A stretch of 42,812 nt of DNA, taken from positions 1-42,812 of the forward strand of contig JABGRQ010000099.1 in the NCBI GenBank assembly GCA_018648225.1, in the 5' to 3' direction. A program made the translations under genes and the position numbers. Positions 4,927 through 17,464 of the stretch are shown here, piece after piece. Source of the stretch: Chloroflexota bacterium (GTDB lineage: Bacteria; Chloroflexota; Anaerolineae; Anaerolineales; UBA11858). Every line of letters begins with the position of its first letter. Within the stretch, counting starts at the first letter, position 1. Under the pieces are notes generated by a model. That model ran no database searches. It was not told where the DNA came from and was given only the letters and a program-made list of their open reading frames with translations.

Positions 4927-4954
4927 TTGCGAGTTGCCATTCTCTGGGTATAAT
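4927..4954 (+). promoter_or_regulatory. Sigma-70-type promoter for glmS
   Basis: TTGCGA (4927-4932) and TATAAT (4949-4954) are separated by 16 bases. Transcription would start near 4961, about 22 bases before the predicted ribozyme cleavage site at 4983/4984, matching the short leader usual for glmS ribozymes. Between this and the mreB promoter an imperfect inverted repeat (4844-4852 with 4915-4925) is visible; its role is unknown. Confidence 0.7.
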
Positions 4955-4983
4955 TCGCGCCTACATTCGAGTAGGGAAAGACA

Positions 4984-5221
4984 GCGCATGGACCAAGTTC
5001 GCCAGATAATTGTTTCTCATCGAGATTATCATTGGTCGAACTTGGTTGACGAGGATGAGGGTTCCCCATTGCAAGATGGGGCTAACCCCGGCGAGAGTCG
5101 GGGGAAAATCGAAAGATCAGCGGAAGCCCTCCGGGAGTGCCACAGCCCGTTATCCTTTCCCTCCAACGAACGCCGTAAAAAAATCTTTGGGTAACCGAAG
5201 CGACAAAGCCGCGGCGAGTGG
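4984..5221 (+). ncRNA. glmS self-cleaving ribozyme (riboswitch)
   Basis: The glmS ribozyme cleaves the leader of the glmS mRNA when glucosamine-6-phosphate binds, lowering enzyme synthesis. Visible elements follow the known order. The cleavage-site strand A|GCGCATGGACC has its predicted cut at 4983/4984. P1 pairs 4992-5001 with 5037-5046 and has a further inner stem. The core GTTGACGAGG is at 5045-5054. P2.1 pairs GAGGG (5057-5061) with CCCTC (5127-5131). The core segment ATCGAAAGATCAGCGG precedes that strand. P3 is CGGG/CCCG, and a P4-like helix is formed by CGCCG...CTTTG with CAAAG...CGGCG. Compared from memory with the Thermoanaerobacter ribozyme, the core bases are kept while helix sequences differ, which suggests real covariation. 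Two additional hairpins (5064-5081 and 5086-5103) are inserted between the P2.1 strand and the ATCGA segment. The 3' limit is approximate. Confidence 0.9.
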
Positions 5222-5226
5222 CGATT

Positions 5227-5322: not shown

Positions 5323-7164
5323 ATGTGTGGAATCGTTGGATATATTGGCCCGCAAGATGCTACCCCTATCATCTTGAGCGGCCTTAAACGGCTGGAATAC
5401 CGCGGCTATGACTCCGCGGGGTTAGCCGTTTTGCAGGACAATCAGATCGAAGTGCGCCGCGATGCTGGCAAATTGGCGCGGCTGACTGCGTTGGTGGGAG
5501 AAGCCCCTTTGCATGGCAATATCGGCATTGGGCATACGCGCTGGGCTACCCACGGCGAACCCAATGCTCGCAATGCCCACCCGCACATGGGTATGACCGG
5601 CGATGTGGTGCTGGTGCATAATGGCATCGTTGAGAATTTCATCGAATTGCGTAGCGAGTTGGAAGCCGAAGGGGTTGAATTTAAGTCAGATACCGATACG
5701 GAGGTCATCGTTCATCTCGTCGAGCGGTATCTCTCCGCAGAACATGGTATTACCGAAGCTGTGCGTAAATCACTCAATCATTTGCGCGGGGCGCATGGCG
5801 TAGTTGTCATGTCTCGGCTGGAACCAGACAAGATTGTTGCCGCGCGCATTGGCAATGCTGGCGGTGTCGTGATTGGCCTGGGCGAAGGGGAGACCTACGT
5901 GGCCTCAGACCTACCCGCAATTTTGGAGCACACGCGGCGTATGATTTTTCTGGAATCACGCCAGATGGCGGTGGTCACGCGCCAGGGAGCACAGATCACC
6001 ACCTTGGAGGGGCTGCCGCTCCCCCTGGATGTGCAGAATGTCCCCTGGGATCCGGTATCCGCTGAAAAGGGCGAATACCGCCATTTCATGCACAAAGAAA
6101 TCCACGAGCAGGTGCGTTCGCTCACCGATACGATCGCTGGTCGGGTTGATTTTGAGGCCGGGCGCATCCGCCTGCCCGATCTCAATCTGACCCCGGAGTT
6201 GGCGCGCCGAATCAATAAAATTGTGATTACCGCCTGTGGAACGGCGGCTTATGCCGGGATGGTTGGCAAAGTACTCATCGAGCGCATCGCCCGCGTGCCC
6301 GTTGATGTAGAAATTGGCTCGGAGTTTCGCTATAGTGAGCCGATTGTCGGGCCGGATGATGTCGTGCTGGCGATCAGCCAATCGGGCGAGACGGCGGATA
6401 CGCTGGCGGCGATGGAAGAAGGCCGCAAAAATGGGGCTATTTTATGGTCGATTGTGAATGCGATTGGCTCACAGGCCATGCGCATCGCTGATGGCTTTAT
6501 CTCGATGCAAACCGGCCCAGAGATCGGCGTAGCCTCGACGAAAGCCTATACCGCGCCCCTGGTCGATTTGTATATGCTGGCAATTCTATTGGCCGATTTA
6601 CGCGGCGTGATCGATGCGGACACGCGCAAAAAATTGGTCGCGGATTTACGCCTGATCCCCGATCTGGCCGGAAAATGCCTGGATCGGGAAGCGCAGGTTG
6701 AAAAAGTGGCTCAGGCGCTGGTTGACGCGCGTCACGCGCTTTATTTGGGGCGCGGCATTAATATGCCCACAGCCTATGAAGGCGCTTTGAAACTCAAAGA
6801 AATATCCTATATCCACGCCGAAGGGTATCCGGCGGGCGAGATGAAGCACGGCCCGATTGCGCTGATTGACAGCGAGATGCCGGTGGTGGTGATTGCGCCG
6901 CGCGACCCGTGGTATGAAAAGATGTTCAGCCAGATTGAGCAATCCAAAGCCCGCGGGGGGCGCGTGATTGCCGTGGCGACTGAAGGCGATGAACTTATTC
7001 CCCCGGTGGCGGATCAGGTGCTTTGGGTACCCGAAACCCCCTGGATGCTCAGCCCGGTGACCACCGTGATTCCGCTGCAAATGCTAGCCTACCATATCGC
7101 AGCTTTGCGCGGCCTGGATGTGGATCAGCCGCGTAATTTAGCCAAATCGGTGACAGTCGAGTAA
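5323..7164 (+). CDS. glmS: Glutamine--fructose-6-phosphate aminotransferase (isomerising)
   Basis: Cytoplasmic enzyme that makes glucosamine-6-phosphate from fructose-6-phosphate and glutamine, the first step to UDP-GlcNAc for peptidoglycan. The 613-residue length is standard. The N-terminal class II glutaminase domain begins MCGIVGYIG, so Cys2 becomes the N-terminal nucleophile after Met removal; HTRWATHG and NGIVEN motifs follow. Two SIS domains come next (about residues 290-430 and 460-600), with TACGTAAYAG, ISQSGETADT and a C-terminal end PRNLAKSVTVE that is characteristic of GlmS. A strong GGAGG ribosome site lies six bases before the ATG. The upstream ribozyme indicates feedback control by its product. 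It lies beside the divergent mre operon, another cell-wall function. Confidence 0.98.
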   Translation: MCGIVGYIGPQDATPIILSGLKRLEYRGYDSAGLAVLQDNQIEVRRDAGKLARLTALVGEAPLHGNIGIGHTRWATHGEPNARNAHPHMGMTGDVVLVHNGIVENFIELRSELEAEGVEFKSDTDTEVIVHLVERYLSAEHGITEAVRKSLNHLRGAHGVVVMSRLEPDKIVAARIGNAGGVVIGLGEGETYVASDLPAILEHTRRMIFLESRQMAVVTRQGAQITTLEGLPLPLDVQNVPWDPVSAEKGEYRHFMHKEIHEQVRSLTDTIAGRVDFEAGRIRLPDLNLTPELARRINKIVITACGTAAYAGMVGKVLIERIARVPVDVEIGSEFRYSEPIVGPDDVVLAISQSGETADTLAAMEEGRKNGAILWSIVNAIGSQAMRIADGFISMQTGPEIGVASTKAYTAPLVDLYMLAILLADLRGVIDADTRKKLVADLRLIPDLAGKCLDREAQVEKVAQALVDARHALYLGRGINMPTAYEGALKLKEISYIHAEGYPAGEMKHGPIALIDSEMPVVVIAPRDPWYEKMFSQIEQSKARGGRVIAVATEGDELIPPVADQVLWVPETPWMLSPVTTVIPLQMLAYHIAALRGLDVDQPRNLAKSVTVE

Positions 7165-17374: not shown

Positions 17375-17464
17375 TGGCGGAGAGGGAGGGATTCGAACCC
17401 TCGATACCTTGCGGTATACGCGCTCTCCAGGCGCGCGCACTAGGCCAGACTATGCGACCTCTCC
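17375..17464 (-). tRNA. tRNA-Ser (anticodon GGA)
   Basis: Read on the minus strand, a complete 90-base tRNA folds. The acceptor GGAGAGG pairs with CCTCTCC. The anticodon stem GCGCGC/GCGCGT carries loop CTGGAGA (anticodon GGA). A long variable arm (TACC GCAA GGTA) is typical of serine tRNA. The T loop is GGTTCGAATCC. The 3' CCA is encoded (17375-17377). Confidence 0.96.

Follow-up and report, generated by a model that had tools for sequence, protein, structure and literature searches.

The window, a stretch of 42,812 nucleotides from a Chloroflexota bacterium, contains in the 5' leader of its glmS gene an element that we are highly confident is a genuine, cis-acting glmS-class ribozyme; its cleavage in response to GlcN6P is inferred, as there are no cleavage or ligand data. 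Our best reading of this element, taken together with a set of diverged copies that we call N-type, is that a glmS-class ribozyme regulon has been extended to nitrogen assimilation, with GlcN6P probably still in use. The reading draws on observed homology, structure supported by covariation, gene contexts, a single N-type clade and a conserved module; the cleavage, the ligand and the attenuation that it invokes are inferred.

A whole-window Rfam cmscan matched positions 4972–5226 (+ strand) to the glmS ribozyme family, RF00234, with 54.2 bits (E 6.3e-10), above the family's gathering score of 37 bits; a chance covariance match is excluded by this score. The element lies about 100 bases ahead of an open reading frame (5323–7164, +) that a family search identified as glmS, encoding glutamine--fructose-6-phosphate transaminase (TIGR01135, 767 bits). 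A sequence-only reading of this DNA had proposed a glmS ribozyme ahead of glmS in a probable Chloroflexota genome and had named the family's covariance model as a check. The score, the gene context and the core residues bear this proposal out, and the genome does belong to Chloroflexota (Anaerolineae). Absent from that reading were a helix designated P0, the P3.1 pseudoknot, the diverged copies in the same genome and a promoter-like site (TTGCGA-16-TATAAT, 4927–4954, +). The last of these agrees with the consensus at 10 of 12 positions in a consensus scan and is by itself no evidence of function. Elsewhere, the window carries an ordinary tRNA-Ser (GGA; 17375–17464, −).

Does this copy retain the parts that define the class? 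It has the cleavage-site A/G (the slash marks the cut), the catalytic and cofactor-site residues, and the P4 domain. The predicted cleavage site falls between A4983 and G4984 (+); A(-1), G1, C2 and G3 do not vary among the 86 glmS-type or the 59 N-type copies. The 5' strand of P2.2 (CGCAUG, 4985–4990, +), whose partner is 5118–5122, precedes P1 with its apical extension (4991–5047, +; base 4991–5001/5037–5047), as judged by reading of the sequence and the RF00234 alignment. GACGAGG occupies 5048–5054 (+); its positions 5050–5052 form the 5' strand of P2.1, and ACGAGG is invariant in the alignment. The 3' strand of P2.1 (5109–5111) lies within AUCGA (5108–5112, +), in which AUCG is likewise invariant. 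P2 (5057–5062 with 5126–5131, +) is supported by covariation among 46 sequences. The strand AUCAGCGG is found at 5116–5123, and its CAGCGG portion (5118–5123, +) comprises the 3' strand of P2.2 (5118–5122) and an unpaired G5123, the cofactor-site residue by analogy with glmS ribozyme structures. The strands of the double pseudoknot made by P2, P2.1 and P2.2 are complementary; in addition to the covariation of P2, positions 5 and 53 of P2.2 covary across relatives. P3 (5132–5149, +; 5132–5135/5146–5149) and P3.1 (the loop 5139–5143 with 5218–5222, +) rest on complementarity, while P4 (5171–5216, +), with an A-rich internal loop and a GUAA tetraloop (5191–5194), follows from the RF00234 alignment and the sequence. 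G5054 is the catalytic G, the homologue of B. subtilis G42 (role from PMC11602151), and a cofactor-site role for G5123 is supported by published work (PMC7125110). The core strands are located where the sequence-only reading had placed them, and P1 is extended, as it had noted.

That reading had also described two inserted hairpins, and both exist. They are placed between the P2 5' strand and the AUCGA strand of P2.1. Hairpin A (5064–5081, +) comprises 7 bp (5064–5070/5075–5081) and a GCAA loop; hairpin B (5086–5103, +) comprises 7 bp (5086–5092/5097–5103) and a GAGA loop. They are joined by the linker CUAA (5082–5085, +), of a type found in 70 of 86 glmS-type and 56 of 59 N-type copies, and GAAAAUCGA lies directly 3' of hairpin B. 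Alignment of related Anaerolineae leaders, which had been suggested as a further check, was carried out with 46 relatives and analyzed with RNAalifold: of 23 pairs predicted, chiefly within the hairpins, 19 had two-sided compensatory change in at least one sequence. All 7 pairs of hairpin A showed such changes, in up to 29 of the 46 sequences, as did 6 pairs of hairpin B, in up to 21. Both hairpins were present in 67 of the 82 parsed glmS leaders of the class; some leaders had one or none. An event unique to this genome is ruled out, as the hairpins are class-wide and covarying. As two hairpins are the norm in this class, their presence does not have to mean a changed response to the ligand, for which there are no data.

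The additional helix, P0, joins the leader immediately upstream of the cut (AGGGAAAG, 4973–4980, +) to a segment after P3 (CUUUCCCU, 5155–5162, +) over 8 base pairs. These positions are unpaired in the Rfam model. RNAalifold did not predict P0 from the 46-sequence alignment because the pyrimidine tract is misaligned there, and the helix was therefore tested by permutation. In a set of 84 non-redundant sequences, pairing scored 16.1 on average, compared with 13.0 (sd 0.25) for permuted partners (z 12.6); none of 1000 permutations reached 16.1, and control windows downstream were flat (z -1.1 to 1.6). The paired strands differ in sequence among relatives (GGAGAAGCA/UGCUUCUCC, CCAUGACG/CGUCAUGG and AAAGAUU/AAUCUUU). 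Class members without hairpins A and B have P0 as well, whereas it is not evident in the other Chloroflexota classes sampled. This pattern suggests, by inference, that the canonical form gained P0 and then the two hairpins. In two Bacillota controls, the P3–P4 junction was only a few bases long. The presence of P0 lets one ask whether a glmS ribozyme can hold or re-ligate its 5' product.

The sequence-only reading was unsure how many such ribozymes are recorded in Chloroflexota. RF00234 matched in 46 of 61 relatives; at the level of the class, 140 of 298 genomes had a match, and at that of the phylum, 91 of 301, which makes the glmS ribozyme an ordinary find in Chloroflexota. Matches sampled from other classes of the phylum were mostly short forms (150–210 nt) ahead of glmS. 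A few glmS-type ribozymes precede other genes. At L212 (1961–3079) and L216 (1744–2892), the gene is of the DegT/DnrJ/EryC1 aminotransferase type, followed in L216 by a Gfo/Idh/MocA oxidoreductase gene; recruitment to amino-sugar synthesis is possible. L200 (1903–3216) has a ribozyme ahead of a frame in which CofD and phosphoglucomutase domains occur, and L230 (− strand) has one ahead of an 831-aa frame that was not identified.

The N-type copies sit ahead of nitrogen genes, not in the glmS 5' leader. Besides the ribozyme of the window, its genome holds a second copy ahead of glnA (C79:615-830, L031; 29.4 bits) and a third at C53:15390 (L318, G000:C53), ahead of MOSC-like and DinB genes. In a relative (L054), a glutamate synthase-type gene comes after a similar gene pair; none follows in L318. 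A pattern scan of species genomes yielded at least 47 N-type-like loci. Of 400 genomes from the phylum, 12 had the N-type pattern, and every one of these belongs to the order of the window. By tblastn, the genes after 59 N-type leaders were glnA (40), ada-eamA-glnA (10), glutamate synthase (5) and unresolved (4); family searches backed the identities of glnA (TIGR00653), Ada/Ogt, EamA and glutamate synthase. At its gathering score, RF00234 did not list the two copies in the window's own genome, L141 or L129; N-type copies above that score exist (L014 and L015, for example), and many others fall below it. The same four loci (L031, L318, L141 and L129), when scanned, had no RF01739 match. In Longilinea arvoryzae KOME-1 (L129, 826–1240), the N-type ribozyme has no terminator-like module, and a 46-aa ORF stands in place of glnA. 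A literature search of limited scope returned no paper on a glmS ribozyme ahead of glnA, the existence of which is not excluded.

The two forms differ in the core. Copies of the glmS type read A/GCGC, then mostly A or C, with 7 nt ahead of P1, and their positions 5 and 53 are linked: A goes with A, and C goes with G. N-type copies read A/GCG, G or A, CUG, and A or G, with 8 nt ahead of P1, opposite AUCAGCGG in nearly all. A/GCG occurs in all 59 N-type copies, and the core elements ACGAGG, AUCG and GCGG are retained in the alignment; the first base of GACGAGG is variable. These counts are partly shaped by the scan pattern, and the copies found by RF00234 alone agree with them except for L047 and L245. 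When the N-type copies are numbered like the T. tengcongensis core of PMC7125110, their P2.2 has no bulge at position 6, a feature at least 97% conserved elsewhere (PMC7125110). From the sequences we infer that the bulge lies at position 4 instead, with five pairs still possible; a one-base insertion inside P2.2 was considered and was replaced by a moved bulge plus an extra base before P1. In the T. tengcongensis core, C4A was rescued about 24-fold by A6C, a result interpreted as a position-4 bulge (PMC7125110). The match of N-type P2.2 to this shifted-bulge arrangement, which is active in vitro, counts in favor of the main reading.

In a tree of the cores, which has few columns and many weak forks, the N-type sequences formed one clade (support 100/98) with L047 inside it. 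L060 carries an N-type sequence, though it was counted in the other class of leaders. L245, a GCGCC copy ahead of glutamate synthase, falls outside the clade; therefore, recruitment to nitrogen genes occurred at least twice. The N-type form itself, found in one order, appears to be a duplicated and diverged ribozyme that arose once.

Between the N-type ribozyme and its gene, a terminator-like hairpin was detected by a strict test in 24 of 53 cases, compared with 0.5 expected from shuffles, and by a looser test in 43 of 59 leaders. In the other class, 2 of 84 passed the strict test, L060 among them. The motif is conserved (GGYAYGC-CCNN-GCRURCC-U(n)), and its exact form occurs once in the whole window genome, within the glnA leader, which excludes an origin of the hairpin from some terminator or repeat common in the genome. 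Searched alone in relatives, the motif led to two more N-type leaders, L325 and L333, and to one unrelated site (L324); among the distinct places in 61 relatives, G044:C41 has it without an adjoining ribozyme. Most N-type leaders have GGAAGGGC 30–40 nt upstream of the hairpin, and GGGC(N)UGCC is able to pair with the terminator arm GGCA(Y)GCCC, with a score above those of all 2000 permutations (z 4.2). Also, GGAAGG is complementary to CUUCC beside the P0 3' strand: both were present in 60 N-type leaders and neither in 6, with CUUCC only in 4 (Fisher p 1.6e-6). The kinship of the sequences was not corrected for in these two tests. Cleavage, at which the P0 5' strand is lost, could free CUUCC and so favor termination; this attenuation is inferred, without proof.

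How might these RNAs work? In the window copy, plentiful GlcN6P would bind the double-pseudoknot core and help to cut the mRNA at A4983/G4984. The 3' piece with glmS would then be degraded, presumably by RNase J as in B. subtilis (the genome encodes this enzyme; 574 bits), closing a feedback loop. The architecture is a sub-form of Anaerolineae: P0 clamps the leader upstream of the cut onto the P3–P4 junction, and hairpins A and B lengthen the loop that P2 closes, next to the core. In the N-type copies, GlcN6P-dependent cleavage would lower the glutamine supply, jointly with the terminator/antiterminator-like module downstream. Glutamine is used to make GlcN6P, and GlcN6P in turn feedback-inhibits glutamine synthetase, which renders such wiring plausible. 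That the N-type copies are ribozymes that still cleave is quite probable, even without cleavage data; that GlcN6P is their ligand is only somewhat favored, there being no ligand data. The separate recruitment of glmS-type L245 to glutamate synthase favors an unchanged ligand. Apart from these missing data, the main reading must contend with the absence of the position-6 bulge in N-type P2.2, the sub-gathering scores of the N-type copies in the window's own genome, and a shift in genes that could mean a changed ligand.

A more detailed account can be advanced only tentatively: an order of Anaerolineae would control glutamine synthetase and glutamate synthase by a diverged, glmS-derived self-cleaving ribozyme with a moved P2.2 bulge, in which cleavage releases the P0 5' strand and the freed 3' side (CUCCCUUCC) captures the conserved GGAAGGG of an antiterminator, which allows the terminator to form. 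This would be transcription attenuation by a ribozyme, possibly with an altered ligand. We consider it unlikely that the N-type copies have changed ligand outright, becoming self-cleaving switches for another amine that reports nitrogen state (e.g., glutamine), with GlcN6P retained by the window copy alone. In favor of this, nitrogen genes are what all N-type copies control, linked changes are seen in the core (the moved bulge and the variable first base of GACGAGG), and in riboswitch variants a new gene context together with an altered core usually signals a new specificity. However, A(-1), G1, C2, ACGAGG, AUCG and GCGG are unaltered, L245 was recruited independently, and the inhibition of glutamine synthetase by GlcN6P makes a new ligand unneeded. 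More doubtful still is an N-type RNA that has lost cleavage and works, as a structured switch, through the downstream module only; the excess of terminator-like hairpins over shuffles and over the other class and the antiterminator-like pairing would suit it, but the invariance of the cleavage-site A/G and the catalytic G in 59 copies is hard to explain without cleavage. Scarcely credible is a degenerate window copy inactivated by its two hairpins, for although it scores 54 bits against ~80–100 for canonical copies, the lower score stems from lineage-wide insertions, and the hairpins, P0, P2 and the core are kept with compensatory change.

We return to the reading of a glmS-class regulon extended to nitrogen assimilation. 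With RF00234 as known from B. subtilis and T. tengcongensis, the window copy shares the core, P3/P3.1, P4 with its GNRA loop and A-rich internal loop, the cleavage-site sequence and the place ahead of glmS; it adds hairpins A and B, P0 and a long P3–P4 junction, and the N-type differs also in P2.2 and in the genes served. Deinococcus-Thermus glmS variants reportedly carry additional stems in the catalytic core, and the insertions seen here as hairpins A and B may be of that kind. The glmS ribozymes are said to serve almost only glmS, and we know of no ribozyme regulon for nitrogen assimilation described previously. If the present reading is true, the spread of a derived form to the genes for glutamine synthetase and glutamate synthase would give the first such regulon known to us, and an altered switch ahead of glutamine-synthesis genes would constitute an RNA link from cell-wall sugar supply to nitrogen assimilation. 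The glnA RNA (RF01739), listed as glutamine-sensing (PMC3766115), is, like the N-type copies, tied to glutamine metabolism, but it is a different family. The shifted-bulge P2.2 mutants of T. tengcongensis (C4A + A6C, bulge at position 4; PMC7125110) have the form of the N-type; they were made in vitro, whereas the N-type shows U6-A53 and one more nucleotide ahead of P1. In its P2.2, the N-type thus seems to offer a naturally occurring version of an arrangement that had been deduced only from in vitro mutants.
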